From NCBI GenBank assembly GCA_027051265.1, contig JALTZH010000178.1:1-11393 (forward strand): DNA of 11,393 bases, given 5' to 3'. The notes beneath the pieces are model-generated. The model made no database searches. It was not told the origin of the DNA and saw only the letters and a list, made by a program, of their open reading frames with translations. Position numbers and translations under genes: made by a program. Source of the DNA: an archaeon. Lineage in GTDB: Archaea > Hydrothermarchaeota > Hydrothermarchaeia > JALTZZ01 > JALUTC01. Below are positions 2,788-8,952 of this stretch, piece by piece (within the stretch, counting starts at the first letter, position 1; each line of letters begins with the position of its first letter).

Positions 2788-5700
2788 TTAACCGTTATTT
2801 TGGTTTTTAATCTTGTTAAATATTACATCCAATCCTTTATTTTCTGAGCTACCGAACATTTGTTCTATATTCTTTATCATTATCTCAATTCTCTGCTTCA
2901 AATATTCATCCATTACATATTTTGAATTGATATCCAATATTATGTTTAAATATTTTTCAACAGCGCCTCTAGAAACAGTTAATACAAGATTTCCTCCACA
3001 TATACATTTACCTAACAGTGGTATTCTCCTATATATCTTATTGCAACTCGTGCATCTAAAGCTTTGAGTTGAAAAGCTTCTAAGGTTTCCTAAAACATCT
3101 CTTATAAAATGGGATTCTATCAATCTTTTAGCAACATCTTCTTCATTACATGCTTTTATTTTTGATGCGAGTAATAACTGTTTCTTAACCTTATCTTCCA
3201 TTTTACTGAGTTTCTTATACATAGTTACGATTGGTCCGTTTGTAATATTTTCACATTCATGTGTATACATTAATCTCCTGAATTGTTCCTCTTTCCCTAA
3301 TCTTTTAGATACGTTATCTATCAAACTTTCAATATCTGAAGGTTTTGGAAATTCATAGGTTTTTAAATAAAATTCTAATGGATATATTTCACATGTATCT
3401 AATTTATGAACCTCATCATCAACCTCTATTGGGTTTATTCTGGTATTTATTACTAGAGGAGCATCCATTCTTCCACCTCTTGTACTTGGTAGGAATTCTT
3501 TTGAGAAGTTTAAAAATGCATCTAATAGAAGAATTACCGAATCTTCATCACCATCACAGTTTGATGTCAGGATATCATTTACAAAGAGATTATGATGAGG
3601 TTTAGTATTTAATGAGTAAATATATCTGTCATAATATTTTATTACTTCGACATCTTTAACTTTAACGAATTCAATTCCATTGGAATTATATTTTAGCATT
3701 GTATCGTTTTTCTTCACATCTAATGATATTTTTCTTATAACTTTACCATCGTTCCATATAATCACAGGATGATCATACGTTGTAACGAGAGTACTTCCAT
3801 CCGAAAGTATAATCTTAACCAAATGGTTTGGTGCATTCATTTTAATAACCTCATCAATTTCAGCCAACACTATTTTGGAACGTTTTGGATCGTATGAATA
3901 AACTTTTATATCTTTTTTAGCCTTCTTTTTTACATACGCATTCTTATCGTAAACTTCATGCTCAAAGAAATTCTCATACAATTCCTGAATCTTTATCTTC
4001 ATTTTTTTATTCTCTATATTTACAAGAATCTCAGCCTCTCCAGGGAAACAATTCCTTCTTTTAGCAGCATGCCAATATGGATGAGCAAAGCATCCTTGGA
4101 CTTTTGTGTATCCTATTATTCTACCCACTATTCCACAAGAAGTATGAGGTGCCAATCCTATTACGAGATGTCCTATCAAATCTTCTTTTCTTTTAGCATT
4201 ATAAAATGGCTCTAAACCATAAACTTTTACAAGGAGTTCATCTACGAATTTAGATACTTTATATAAATATTCCAAACAATCTTCAGAAACAATTATATCC
4301 TGAGGCAACAATTCTAATATTTGATTTTCATCACGTAACTCGTTTCCATAAATATCTCTCTCATAACCCAATTCTCTAAGTTTATCTACCGATACATTAA
4401 TCTCTTTTGGTTTAAAATGCGTAAGTGGTATGTTTGTCATATCATATCTACATGTTCCATCTTTAAATACGTAGAGACCGTATTTACTTCTCAATATACC
4501 TTTTTCAAGAATCTCAGGAACTTTATTCTTAGATGTAAGTCCTATTACTCCCTTTATTTCTCCTCCAAAACTACCAACTCTCTTTATTGCTTGGGATAAT
4601 AACTTCTCTATCTCAATAGCTCTTTTACTATAGTATATTTTATCTATATTACAATTACATTCCGTTCCTTTACATCTTGGACAAATTCCTTCCAGTATTG
4701 TTTCCGAACCACATTGCTCACAAATAATGAAATATGTATATCTATTACAATTTTTACAATATCTGTTTACGATTTCCACATAAATTTTCTTCTTTTCAGC
4801 TGCTTTTCTAACACTTCTTGTCCTACCGCCGTAGTTTGATAGGGGAAAAAGAACATTAACCGGTGGCTGCATTTTTCTTGCATCAGATTTTTCAGGTCTA
4901 CCCATTCTAGCACCAATATAAAACAATGCTTTTGGTCTAACTTTAATGAACCTGTTCACGAGTTCCAATGAATCTTTGGCTTTATTATATTCTTTTTCAA
5001 ATCTTGATAGGTTGAAATCCCATATACCCAAAGCATATAATAGAGGAAGATAATCCTCGATTATTATCTCGTTATCTTTTACAATATGTGGAACCAATAA
5101 ATCTTCAAGAATTCTCTTCTCCTTTTTAGATAGTTTAACGTGAAGTTTTCCATTTATTATCTTACCACTAACTAAATATCGTGCTAATAACTTTAAATCT
5201 TCCTTTTTAACCTCGTTGTAATTGTAAGTATATCTAGGATGAAGAGGGATATTCAACATCAAAGATATCTCAACCGCTTCTTTGGAAGATGGTATGTTTC
5301 TTAAGTTTAGATATTTTTCATATTTGGCATAAATTTCTTTAGATTGCTTCTTCAAAGCTTCTCGAAGCTCTTGTACCCAAAATTCTTCAACATAACCAGT
5401 AGGCAATAAAATATGATTGTTTTGAATAAACTCACCTACAGCTATTAATATATCTCCAAGGAAAAGTATTTCATCGACATCGTTCTTTATTTTATCGGCA
5501 TCCTTTTCTACTCTTATTACGGAACCATCCTTTAATCTAACAACCGGTGGTTCAATAGTATCACATACAGTTACAACTCCTGCTTTTCCCGGACGTTCTA
5601 ATTTTATTTGAGTTCCTAATGCTATAAATCCATCGAGTAATATAAGGGTTGAAGGATGTAAAGCAACAGCAGCTAATCCAGATGTTCTAGTTCTACCATA

Positions 5701-6642
5701 CCTAAGTCTAAAACCACCTTTTCTCGATGGATGACATAACACTGGCCTTCCAGCAACAATTTCTTTCAAATATTTATCATCCGGTAGGATTTCGATCTCT
5801 TTTTCTTCTTCAACTTCTTCCTTAACTAAATTTTTAAGCCATTCCCATCCATCAAGTTTAAACTTTTCAACGAATTTTATAAGCTTCTTAGCCTTTTGTA
5901 AGATACCTTCAGCTATAACTAATAGTGCTCCTCCTCTTATTTTATTCGTTTCAATTCGATCTAAATCTCTGTAACCGGAGACTTCAACATCTTCCGTAGC
6001 TTCACCAGTTATTTCTACTGGAATATTTTTTATAACTGTCCTTATTTCATCAGCATCAGGTTTATATTGCAATCTACCAACTTCCTGAAAATAAATTTCA
6101 AATTCCTCAACAAACCTTTCTATTTCCTCTTCAGTTGGTTTATAACGATCGAGACCAATTTCTCGTCTTAATATGTCAGCGAATAGTACACTTAACGCCT
6201 GCGCTGTCCCACCAGCTGATCTTATTGGACCAGCATAGTATACTGCCAAATATTTAGTTCCATCAAAATTTTTCTTTATTTTAACCTTAACTATTCCTTC
6301 TATAGGAGCAGAGACAACACCTTCCGTCACTATTGCTAACGCAACTCTTAAAGCCTTGTCGAGTTTTTCCTCGAGATTATCTCCGTTATATTTGTTTAAA
6401 ATTTCCTTTGCAACTTCCATTGCAAGTTCTATTCTTGAGAGATTTTTCAATTCTTTTTCTTTAATTATTTTTGCAACACCTTTAATATTTAACAAACCTT
6501 CAACTCTTGATGCTAGATCTCTAGCTATAGAAATATCAACATCTAAACTTGCATCAAATCCTAATTTTCTTGCTCTACTTGCAAGTTCGTAGCATCTGTT
6601 TATATAATCTTCCAATTGTTTGAAATAAGAATTAATTTCCAT
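2788..6642 (-). CDS. polC: DNA polymerase D large (catalytic) subunit DP2, with intein
   Basis: Catalytic subunit of replicative DNA polymerase D, which works with the exonuclease subunit DP1 (not in the window). The precursor has 1284 residues; removing the intein (865-1028) leaves 1120, close to intein-free archaeal DP2 proteins. Recognisable blocks in order: YYAGPIRSAGGTAQALSVLF in the N-terminal third, the GRTRTSGLAAVALHP block, RMGRPEKSDARKMQPP, a Cys-rich zinc segment at about 628-666, and the active-site stretch HPYWHAAKRRN/CDGDED. Asp1030 and Asp1032 of the precursor (866 and 868 when spliced) are the expected metal-binding acids. A second zinc site has CxxC at 1197/1200 and CxC at 1213/1215. 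The ATG at 6642 is chosen because the N-terminus matches the family and a TATA-like element lies 25-34 bases upstream. Polymerase activity should depend on splicing, because the intein splits the catalytic motif. Confidence 0.96.
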   Translation of the reverse strand: MEINSYFKQLEDYINRCYELASRARKLGFDASLDVDISIARDLASRVEGLLNIKGVAKIIKEKELKNLSRIELAMEVAKEILNKYNGDNLEEKLDKALRVALAIVTEGVVSAPIEGIVKVKIKKNFDGTKYLAVYYAGPIRSAGGTAQALSVLFADILRREIGLDRYKPTEEEIERFVEEFEIYFQEVGRLQYKPDADEIRTVIKNIPVEITGEATEDVEVSGYRDLDRIETNKIRGGALLVIAEGILQKAKKLIKFVEKFKLDGWEWLKNLVKEEVEEEKEIEILPDDKYLKEIVAGRPVLCHPSRKGGFRLRYGRTRTSGLAAVALHPSTLILLDGFIALGTQIKLERPGKAGVVTVCDTIEPPVVRLKDGSVIRVEKDADKIKNDVDEILFLGDILIAVGEFIQNNHILLPTGYVEEFWVQELREALKKQSKEIYAKYEKYLNLRNIPSSKEAVEISLMLNIPLHPRYTYNYNEVKKEDLKLLARYLVSGKIINGKLHVKLSKKEKRILEDLLVPHIVKDNEIIIEDYLPLLYALGIWDFNLSRFEKEYNKAKDSLELVNRFIKVRPKALFYIGARMGRPEKSDARKMQPPVNVLFPLSNYGGRTRSVRKAAEKKKIYVEIVNRYCKNCNRYTYFIICEQCGSETILEGICPRCKGTECNCNIDKIYYSKRAIEIEKLLSQAIKRVGSFGGEIKGVIGLTSKNKVPEILEKGILRSKYGLYVFKDGTCRYDMTNIPLTHFKPKEINVSVDKLRELGYERDIYGNELRDENQILELLPQDIIVSEDCLEYLYKVSKFVDELLVKVYGLEPFYNAKRKEDLIGHLVIGLAPHTSCGIVGRIIGYTKVQGCFAHPYWHAAKRRNCFPGEAEILVNIENKKMKIKIQELYENFFEHEVYDKNAYVKKKAKKDIKVYSYDPKRSKIVLAEIDEVIKMNAPNHLVKIILSDGSTLVTTYDHPVIIWNDGKVIRKISLDVKKNDTMLKYNSNGIEFVKVKDVEVIKYYDRYIYSLNTKPHHNLFVNDILTSNCDGDEDSVILLLDAFLNFSKEFLPSTRGGRMDAPLVINTRINPIEVDDEVHKLDTCEIYPLEFYLKTYEFPKPSDIESLIDNVSKRLGKEEQFRRLMYTHECENITNGPIVTMYKKLSKMEDKVKKQLLLASKIKACNEEDVAKRLIESHFIRDVLGNLRSFSTQSFRCTSCNKIYRRIPLLGKCICGGNLVLTVSRGAVEKYLNIILDINSKYVMDEYLKQRIEIMIKNIEQMFGSSENKGLDVIFNKIKNQNNG
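3559..4050 (-). mobile_element. Mini-intein in the DP2 active site
   Basis: A 164-residue protein-splicing element, in frame, inserted between Asn864 and the Cys that begins CDGDED. Block A is CFPGEAEILV, with Cys1 as nucleophile. Block B is GSTLVTTYDH, with the TxxH pair Thr91 and His94 (intein numbering). Block F is YIYSLNTKPHHNLFVN and block G is ILTSN, followed by Cys(+1). No LAGLIDADG homing endonuclease is present; the stretch between blocks B and F is only about 50 residues. The penultimate residue is Ser163 rather than the usual His, and the block F position that is usually Asp (in a YDL context) is Ser146. Mini-inteins are known from Pyrococcus PolII genes at this motif (family knowledge, not checked). 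The base composition looks like the host gene, so the insertion is probably old. Confidence 0.93.
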
Positions 6643-6783: not shown

Positions 6784-7356
6784 TTATATAATAGCAACAA
6801 TGACTAAATTTGATTCGATTTTTGATGTATATATAGGCTTAAATATTCTTTCATTACTATATCCCAAGTTTTCCAAAACATATACATTTTTTCCAAAATC
6901 TTTAGCAACTCTTATTAAAGATCTTAAATCAATTCTTTTTGATCCAAGAATTAATACTTTTCTATTAAGCTTCAGTGCGGAAATTATCTCATCTATACTT
7001 TTAATTCTCGAATGAAAATCAAAGACTATTGTTTCACATAAATCAATCTTTAATCTAGCCAATGCTAGTTGTACTGATGATACGCCAGGTATTATTTCAA
7101 CTTCATATTCAGAATACATGGAACCCAATCCAGAGACCATTGGATCTCCAGTGGATAATATTATCGAATCCTTACTTAAATCTTCTGGATTGAAATTTTT
7201 AAAATCCTTTATAACATGAATGTTTCCTTTTATATAATGTTTAGCAAGATCAATAGCTCTTTTACTTCCATAAACATTTTTAGCTTTAGTTATTAGATTT
7301 TTGGCTATCTCCGTTATATATCCGGGAGCAGGTCCAACACCTATAATTTTTACCAT
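6784..7356 (-). CDS. cbiE: Cobalt-precorrin-7 C5-methyltransferase CbiE
   Basis: A SAM-dependent tetrapyrrole methylase of cobalamin biosynthesis that methylates C5 of the corrin precursor. The 190-residue protein carries the family pattern: GVGPAPGY at 6-13, GSKR at 30-33, STGDPMVSGLG at 68-78, IPGVSSVQLALARL at 89-102, and ENLGYSNERI at 162-171. The GSKRA and SSVQLALAR features separate CbiE from other cobalamin methylases. In many organisms CbiE is fused to or next to CbiT (C15 methylase/decarboxylase); here there is no CbiT domain and no cbiT in the window. The gene is transcribed away from cbiL and preceded by a leader that may fold (see 7369-7436). A 46-codon reading frame ends 2 bp before its ATG. 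Confidence 0.92.
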   Translation of the reverse strand: MVKIIGVGPAPGYITEIAKNLITKAKNVYGSKRAIDLAKHYIKGNIHVIKDFKNFNPEDLSKDSIILSTGDPMVSGLGSMYSEYEVEIIPGVSSVQLALARLKIDLCETIVFDFHSRIKSIDEIISALKLNRKVLILGSKRIDLRSLIRVAKDFGKNVYVLENLGYSNERIFKPIYTSKIESNLVIVAII

Positions 7357-7358
7357 AA

Positions 7359-7499
7359 TTATTTAACGTTGAGGTAATACTGGAATTTACCACTCAATTC
7401 CTCTAAGCCTACTTCGTCACCGATTCGGCTTGAGGATTTTGCCATCAACATCTCCCAATTAACTCTTGCTTTGAAAAATATGGCTTTCCTTAGCGACAT
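7359..7499 (-). CDS. Possible 46-codon leader ORF ahead of cbiE
   Basis: An ATG at 7499-7497 opens a frame of 46 codons beginning MSLRKAIFFKARVNW and ending LSGKFQYYLNVK. It stops with TAA at 7361-7359, only 2 bp before the cbiE ATG. The spacing would suit translational coupling, and an A/T-rich TATA-like TAATAATAAA lies about 30-40 bases upstream. I recognise no protein family. Its codons end in G or C more often (about 21 of 46) than in the genes around it. It overlaps the predicted RNA hairpins at 7369-7436, so the open frame may only reflect a less AT-rich RNA leader. Leader peptide, small unknown protein and non-coding RNA all remain possible. Confidence 0.25.
   Translation of the reverse strand: MSLRKAIFFKARVNWEMLMAKSSSRIGDEVGLEELSGKFQYYLNVK
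7362..7370 (-). promoter_or_regulatory. AACGTTAAA element directly before cbiE
   Basis: On the minus strand AACGTTAAA ends 5 bases before the cbiE ATG. The same nine bases, in the same orientation relative to the gene, lie 15 bases before the cbiL ATG, where they form part of a perfect palindrome. A shared operator half-site or shared mRNA element of the two divergent cobalamin units is a possible reading. Confidence 0.3.
7369..7436 (-). ncRNA. Predicted structured RNA leader of cbiE (two hairpins)
   Basis: Read on the minus strand, two adjacent hairpins can be drawn. Hairpin 1 spans 7436-7399: the 5' arm UCCUCAAGCC (7436-7427) pairs with GGCUUAGAGGA (7409-7399), 10 bp with one bulged A. The inner part reads GAA-UCG-GUGA-CGA-AGUA: a GNRA-type tetraloop on a 3-bp stem, closed by an internal loop GAA/AGUA, the consensus of the bulged-G (loop E) motif. 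Hairpin 2 spans 7397-7369: UUGAG pairs with CUCAA and GUAA with UUAC, with a 2-base bulge and a 9-base loop. An alternative pairing GGAAUU/AAUUCC (7401-7396 with 7387-7382) would break both. The element ends 12 bases before the cbiE ATG. The pairing was found by eye; no known riboswitch class was recognised. Confidence 0.4.
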
Positions 7500-7591
7500 T
7501 TTGTAATGTACAAAACATGGAGATTCTTCCTTTATTATTACGATAACAACTTACCAGTAATAATTAATCTCTTTTCCAAAGAATATTCTAT

Positions 7592-7601
7592 TGTTTAAAC
7601 A
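7592..7601. promoter_or_regulatory. TGTTTAAACA 10-bp palindrome
   Basis: A perfect 10-bp inverted repeat about 36 bp to the left of the larger palindrome at 7637-7654. Both begin with TGTTTAA and end with TTAAACA (overlapping in this shorter one). It may be a second, more tightly spaced binding site for the same regulator, but short A/T-rich palindromes also arise by chance. Confidence 0.25.
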
Positions 7602-7636
7602 TCTTGGGAATATTGTTTCAGATGAAGAATAACCGT

Positions 7637-7654
7637 ATGTTTAACGTTAAACAT
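7637..7654. promoter_or_regulatory. 18-bp perfect palindrome, putative operator of cbiL
   Basis: ATGTTTAACGTTAAACAT is identical to its reverse complement and ends 12 bp before the ATG at 7667. If the cbiL transcript is leaderless, the TATA box should fall at about 7637-7642, inside the palindrome, so a dimeric DNA-binding protein here would block TBP. An in-frame ATG begins the palindrome at 7637, but the CbiL family start points to 7667. The regulator is unknown. Confidence 0.5.
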
Positions 7655-7666
7655 TCTTTGGAATGT

Positions 7667-8254
7667 ATGTTATATGCTTTAAGTTTAGGACCTGGAGATC
7701 CTGAACTTATAACATTAAAAGCTTTGAGAATTATTAAAAGTGTTGATAAAATATATGTTCCTGGAAGATATGCTTATAATATAGTCAAAAGATATAGGAA
7801 ACCAACACTACTAGAAGTACCAATGGGAAAAGGTAAGGATTTTATGATGAAAGTTGCAGATGAAATTATTTCAGAAGCAAAATCTAATGATATAGCATTT
7901 GCAACCATTGGTGATATTCATTTTTTTTCCACGTTTAAATTATTGTTTGAGAAAGCTATAGAATCTGGAATTAAAGTTGAAACAATACCTGGTGTTGCAA
8001 GCTTTTCCTCAATATTTTCTAGACTTAAGATTTTTGTATCAAAGCCTTTTAAAGTTGTTACACAAGATAACTTTAACGATGAAATCATAATCGTACTTAA
8101 AGTAACAAGACCAAGAAATTTAGCAGAGAAATTAAAAGACTTTGGATATAAAAAATTCTTACTCGTCGAAAAAGCATTCATGGAAAATGAGAGAATAACC
8201 GAGAATCTACCAGATAAAAGTGATTACTTTTCAATATTGGTTGGGATGAAGTGA
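7667..8254 (+). CDS. cbiL: Cobalt-precorrin-2 C20-methyltransferase CbiL
   Basis: A SAM-dependent tetrapyrrole methylase that adds a methyl group at C20 of cobalt-factor II / cobalt-precorrin-2, an early branch step into the corrin pathway. From ATG 7667 the protein has 195 residues. It starts [19 protein letters not shown], the usual N-terminal SAM-site block of CbiL, which is why the upstream in-frame ATGs (7604, 7622, 7637) are rejected. Further signatures are the Pro of IYVPG at 29-33, the VPM at 51-53, [10 protein letters not shown] at 81-90 (the GDPxFYSTF block of CbiL, with Pro replaced by Ile), and [10 protein letters not shown] at 107-116. It is somewhat shorter than typical CbiL. 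Its TGA overlaps the cbiG ATG as TGATG, so the two are very likely cotranscribed and translationally coupled. An 18-bp palindrome lies just upstream. Confidence 0.88.
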
Positions 8255-8952
8255 TGAGGATATGTATCATATGTTTTAAAGATGAACTATCTAAAGCAGA
8301 GTTGATCTCCAAAATTCTCAACGCTGATATTTATATTTATGAAAATAATATATTTAATAAAATATATAATAAATATGATTGTATAATATGTTTAATTTCT
8401 CCTGGTATTGTTATCAGAAAGATTTCAAAGATTATTAAGGATAAATTTAAAGATCCAAGTATAGTATTAATTGATAAAAGATTTAAACACTGTATTCCAC
8501 TGATTGGAGCTCATAGATATGGATATAGAATATGTGAAAAGCTAAGCGAAGCAATTGGTATGGAAACAGTTATAACTACAAGAAGTGAAATTTCCAATGG
8601 ATTATGTGTAGGTATTGGATGTAGAAAAGGTAGCAAGAAAGAAGAAATTCTTAGTGCAATATTTAATGCTCTGAAAGAGATAAATGCAAACGTTGATGAT
8701 ATTAGATTATTTGCAACCGTAGATATTAAAAGAAATGAAAAAGGCTTATTAGAAGCGATACGTAACTTAAAGAAACCGATACTTTTTATTGATGGAGAAA
8801 GCTTAAACAAAATACCTGTGAAAGAATCCAAAGCTAAATTAATTGGTATAAAAAATGTTGCTGAAGCTGCTGCGTTGTATTTCTCAAGGAAAAAGAAACT
8901 AATTTTATCGAAGAGGAAATATGGAAACGTTACAATTGCAATTGCTATATAA
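8254..8952 (+). CDS. cbiG: Cobalt-precorrin-5A hydrolase CbiG (short form)
   Basis: CbiG opens the ring-A delta-lactone of cobalt-precorrin-5A, releasing the C20 fragment as acetaldehyde. The C-terminal domain is clear: GIGCRKGSKKEEI at 120-132, FATVDIKRNEKGLLE at 153-167, GIKNVAEAAAL at 198-208, and the ending LILSKRKYGNVTIAIAI. The N-terminal domain shows ISPGIVIRKISKIIKDKFKDPSIVLID and the TTRSE edge. At 232 residues it is about 100 shorter than full-length CbiG. The N-domain runs straight into the C-domain at about 112-120, so the middle domain appears to be missing. The usual GHxGGAN signature is altered to GAHRYGYR (85-92). ATG 8254 overlaps the cbiL stop by one base; the GTG at 8251 is a less likely start. 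It converges on tatD with a 14-bp gap. Confidence 0.87.
   Translation: MRICIICFKDELSKAELISKILNADIYIYENNIFNKIYNKYDCIICLISPGIVIRKISKIIKDKFKDPSIVLIDKRFKHCIPLIGAHRYGYRICEKLSEAIGMETVITTRSEISNGLCVGIGCRKGSKKEEILSAIFNALKEINANVDDIRLFATVDIKRNEKGLLEAIRNLKKPILFIDGESLNKIPVKESKAKLIGIKNVAEAAALYFSRKKKLILSKRKYGNVTIAIAI

Follow-up and report, generated by a model that had tools for sequence, protein, structure and literature searches.

A GNRA-capped hairpin upstream of an archaeal cbiE gene very probably belongs to a truncated IS200/IS605-type relic

The window, that is, the whole stretch of 11,393 nucleotides analysed here, carries on its minus strand the gene cbiE, the start of which was correctly placed at position 7356 by a preliminary description made from the sequence alone. 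In the short region upstream of this gene the same description saw a candidate structured leader RNA, consisting of two tandem hairpins and an alternative stem, that could act as a switch controlling cbiE. The features of the region, in the order in which they are read on the minus strand, are the following.

7503-7506, minus strand: TTAC, a tetranucleotide resembling a target, which borders the left end on its outer (insertion) side and is conserved among copies
7435-7502, minus strand: left end (LE) with a decayed subterminal hairpin; the junction to the tnpB 3' part lies at about 7437-7434
7359-7499, minus strand: open frame of 46 codons, accidental, in which the LE and the hairpin are joined in a frame other than that of tnpB
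7399-7436, minus strand: hairpin 1, GNRA-capped; in full elements the tnpB 3' end and the 5' part of the presumed omegaRNA
7392-7398, minus strand: short tail AGAGGAATTGA, common to copy C208 (96% identity over 24 nt that also take in the 3' arm of hairpin 1)
7369-7391, minus strand: remainder of the proposed second hairpin, without homology to the element and with a fold at chance level
6784-7356, minus strand: cbiE (cobalt-precorrin-7 C5-methyltransferase; TIGR02467 over cut-off, PF00590), the downstream neighbour, outside the element

Positions 7604-8952 contain a divergently oriented cbiL and a CbiG-like gene (233 aa), and cbiD is not located beside cbiE, unlike in genomes G002 and G028.

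Hairpin 1 (7436-7399, minus strand) forms as originally drawn, with a 10-bp stem, one bulged A (7404), the internal loop GAA/AGUA and the apical part UCG-GUGA-CGA. Its calculated energy is -17.3 kcal/mol (z -4.09), which was equalled by none of 200 shuffles. The bulged A results from the loss of one U, still present in most other copies, from the stem of the window copy. Both loop motifs emphasised in the preliminary description are present in the window, and the GNRA loop is common to most well-folded copies of the hairpin (as GCGA, GUGA, GUAA or GCAA), where it is carried by two kinds of apical helix, UCG-GNRA-CGA and CUCC-GNRA-GGAG. The GAA/AGUA loop, corresponding to the bulged-G (loop E/sarcin-ricin) module, is particular to the window copy: GAA/UGUA stands at this place in the near-intact copies C194 and C173, and others diverge more. 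The proposed hairpin 2 (7398-7369) did not survive as a structured element: its energy of -4.7 kcal/mol (z -1.26) is at chance level, being equalled by 22 of 200 shuffles, a counterpart is absent from every related copy compared, and positions 7369-7391 aligned to the distal omegaRNA of eight element copies no better than shuffled sequences. The whole 68 nt folds at -22.5 (z -3.57). For the whole element, the opposite strand has almost the same stability, and stability alone therefore cannot separate RNA from DNA.

A DNA search with positions 7340-7520 as the query produced ten matches in the own genome of the archaeon, the window included, and further matches in two other genomes. The matches form two blocks. 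The left block, 7507-7468 (reaching 7435 in C50), is common to C50, C48, C52, C194, G002 and G028, while the hairpin block, at about 7435-7400, with some copies falling short of these limits or extending slightly beyond them, is common to C173, C194, C75, C119 and C208. Identity over hairpin 1 is 92% to C173 and 89% to C194, and 85-92% overall for the 3' ends of the tnpB copies. In C194 both blocks are parts of a single element, with the left block beginning 1265 nt before the hairpin. Between them lies a gene for a 437-aa TnpB, the frame of which crosses the hairpin and terminates at a stop codon close to the right end. The protein scores over the cut-offs of both guided_TnpB (NF040570, 139 bits) and PF01385, and is assigned to OrfB_IS605 and Cas12f1-like_TNB (Pfam, NCBIfam). 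This layout, together with the domain names, identifies the parent as an element of the IS200/IS605 type with the hairpin in the 3' end of tnpB, and C194 as a full-length, TnpB-bearing relative in the same genome.

The own genome contains 46 matches to tnpB, most of them with stops (pseudogenes), and 19 BLAST matches to the tnpB-3'/RE region. The covariance model R1, built on the hairpin and run on 61 genomes, detected 24 hairpin copies in the own genome and five to six in G002, which belongs to the same order, and had no match in the other 59 genomes searched, including 23 of the phylum. The copies are typically situated inside the 3' ends of tnpB genes or pseudogenes, and many abut tnpB coding remnants. 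When 84,980 genomes were scanned for the core of the hairpin, only the same locus in another assembly (L058) and four bacterial matches emerged; the latter are taken as chance, about two being expected.

The LE of the window is 81% identical to that of C50 over 73 nt and 88-90% identical to those of C194, C48, G002 and G028 over 38-41 nt. A pattern comprising the LE and its TTAC border had 12 matches in the own genome and none when reversed as a control; TTAC and LE are common to the window and 11 other copies. TTAC (once ATAC) stands directly before the left end in 11 of the 12 own-genome copies, and the sequence further out is unrelated. The distance from the LE to the hairpin model varies widely, being 57 nt in C61, 65 nt in the window, 121 nt in C225, 123 nt in C50, 205 nt in C85, 230 nt in C134, 413 nt in C142 and 1265 nt in the full-length C194. 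The sibling derivative C61 retains the LE, the hairpin and the right end (..GAGGTCAG). A right end with a subterminal palindrome, present in C61 and other copies, is absent from the window, where nothing recognisable of the element is left downstream of about position 7392.

The LE fused to the tnpB 3' hairpin and the loss of the right end define an internally deleted, right-truncated IS605-type relic. The feature is, with high confidence, a defunct IS200/IS605-type element (tnpB-bearing, IS1341-like) with an internal deletion, situated directly upstream of cbiE; this reading draws on the observed homology, copy number, place within tnpB genes, LE fusion and absence of the right end. A tnpB-bearing element would have landed, or remained, directly upstream of cbiE, and an internal deletion would have joined the LE (7502-7435) to the GNRA-capped hairpin of the tnpB 3' end (7436-7399). 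This copy has lost the right-end hairpins and the guide junction as well, because of which it can neither transpose nor yield a working guide RNA. The relic may lie inside the 5' untranslated region of cbiE, for which it would have no function. Core-deleted IS605 elements of archaea are known as PATEs (PMC3119063), and the relic belongs to this kind, called PATE when complete. Like the PATEs of Haloquadratum (PMC3119063), it is a core-deleted IS605-type sequence with fused terminal sequences and belongs to a set of many heterogeneous copies; it differs in its additional lack of the right end, which makes it a truncated relic rather than a complete PATE, and in coming from another archaeal lineage.

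The original proposal of a riboswitch-like cis-regulatory leader, in which two hairpins and an alternative stem would control cbiE, drew on a stable, GNRA-looped hairpin about 40 nt before the gene and on the complementary segments GGAATT (7401-7396) and AATTCC (7387-7382), which do exist as letters. A switch between these structures is unsupported, given that hairpin 2 is at chance level and without counterpart in the copies. The hairpin is an interspersed repeat linked to tnpB rather than to cbiE, and in both G002 and G028 cbiE begins where cbiD ends or still inside it, so that the comparison of regions upstream of cbiE, suggested in the preliminary description, reveals no conserved leader. 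The Rfam search suggested there likewise found no family over the gathering score in the window, cobalamin riboswitch and other cis-regulatory RNAs included. The hairpin is thus not specific to cbiE, and a cbiE riboswitch, not supported by these data and already largely refuted, is most improbable. Of the earlier view that the leader of cbiE holds a true structured RNA, one part stands: the hairpin probably descends from a structured RNA, though not from a cbiE leader. A candidate B12-related riboswitch is hereby struck off, and the case exposes a trap, since repeats bearing omegaRNA hairpins resemble structured leaders when seen once. At relaxed Rfam thresholds, positions 7330-7620 gave chance-level matches only (C/D-box-like and others). 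Guide RNAs of the C/D or H/ACA kind were also considered and are unsupported beyond a match to sR2 at E 2.5.

A relic of this origin might have been exapted, with the IS605 LE and omegaRNA hairpin now serving as a cbiE 5' UTR or mRNA stabiliser. The window hairpin is indeed among the best-folded copies without a detectable adjoining tnpB (z -4.6) and lies just upstream of an intact gene, but one U of its stem is lost, the right end and guide are absent, and the case consists of a single locus, for which the second assembly (L058, 99.92% identical) is too similar to reveal constraint; exaptation is accordingly very unlikely. Also very unlikely is that the open frame from 7499 to 7359, though directly visible in the sequence, is a small protein-coding gene with its 46 codons. 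This frame crosses the junction of LE and hairpin, and the tnpB of C194 uses a different one, reading PSKPNRRRCRLRGF across the hairpin where the window frame reads SSSRIGDEVGLEEL; the frame consequently has no ancestral protein.

In full elements the hairpin would form the 5' hairpin of the mature omegaRNA. The reRNA of the ISDra2 TnpB matches the 3' end of tnpB plus the RE and ends in the flanking DNA (PMC8612924), and the sotRNAs of the archaeon Halobacterium are omegaRNAs of the TnpB type (PMC12558985). The parent copies agree with these systems in the tnpB-3'-plus-RE segment, overlapping the tnpB 3' end, and in a GNRA-capped hairpin at the expected place; a transcript of a full copy would be processed into an omegaRNA/reRNA guiding TnpB. 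The window differs in that it keeps the 5' hairpin alone, both the RE and the guide that should follow it being absent, and in that its RNA is a predicted one. The covariation analysis of the stems that had been proposed was run on the element copies and revealed little: in the model-fitted alignment, 80.0% of the cells were paired versus 77.8% in shuffles (7/500), and pair-count measures did not exceed shuffles. Stem changes of the GU and AC types were about equal (46 and 59, p 0.24), without the strand asymmetry sought as a sign of RNA-level selection. With covariation weak and these changes balanced, such selection is unproven in this copy set, as expected for decaying fossil copies.

The Rfam model of the archaeal HgcC RNA (RF00062) aligned over its full length to the tnpB-3'/RE region of the parent copy C173 (L016:202-406), with a shared terminal ..GGGGAGGAGGUCAG; the score of 25.8 bits (E 2.4e-4) is below the cut-off of 50 bits, and the window copy itself had no match to HgcC in the relaxed scan of 7330-7620. 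A search for HgcC in 61 genomes yielded 36 matches, 30 of which were examined as loci (L113-L142). At 14 of these a same-strand TnpB reading frame runs into the match, and a further one (L139) abuts tnpB according to tblastn. The overlap with, or adjacency to, same-strand tnpB 3' ends at 15 of 30 loci suggests that HgcC is an IS605 omegaRNA. All ten matches over the cut-off are solo, without a tnpB running in, and their 3' flanks are variable. In Thermococcus kodakarensis, HgcC1-3 show sense expression from within transposase genes (PMC4247193), and the function of HgcC was called unresolved in 2017 (PMC5732400). It appears rather probable that the hairpin and HgcC belong to one family of archaeal IS605 omegaRNAs, in which the tnpB-adjoining members would be ordinary omegaRNAs and the solo ones stand-alone guide genes or PATEs served in trans. 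If true, this would tie an orphan archaeal RNA to TnpB nucleases and give it a testable guide-RNA role. No paper naming both hgcC and tnpB was found in a literature collection of incomplete coverage. One solo HgcC copy (L107/L121, G000:C28:5798-6076) is located in reversed orientation inside an IS605 relic, as if inserted, and has itself the appearance of a PATE-like mobile element.

The locus in L058 (WAOB01000124.1) is the same as that in the window, with 99.92% identity over 6445 bases. The assembly is labelled 'DPANN group archaeon', although its genes, among them those for cobalamin synthesis and diaminopimelate epimerase, make up a set that is unusual in DPANN; the label is possibly wrong. 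Elsewhere in the window, positions 2788-6642 encode a 1284-aa protein that, recognised by eye, resembles the large subunit of archaeal DNA polymerase II (DP2) and seems to contain an intein, the apparent insert extending from near CFPGEAEILV to HNLFVNDILTSNC.
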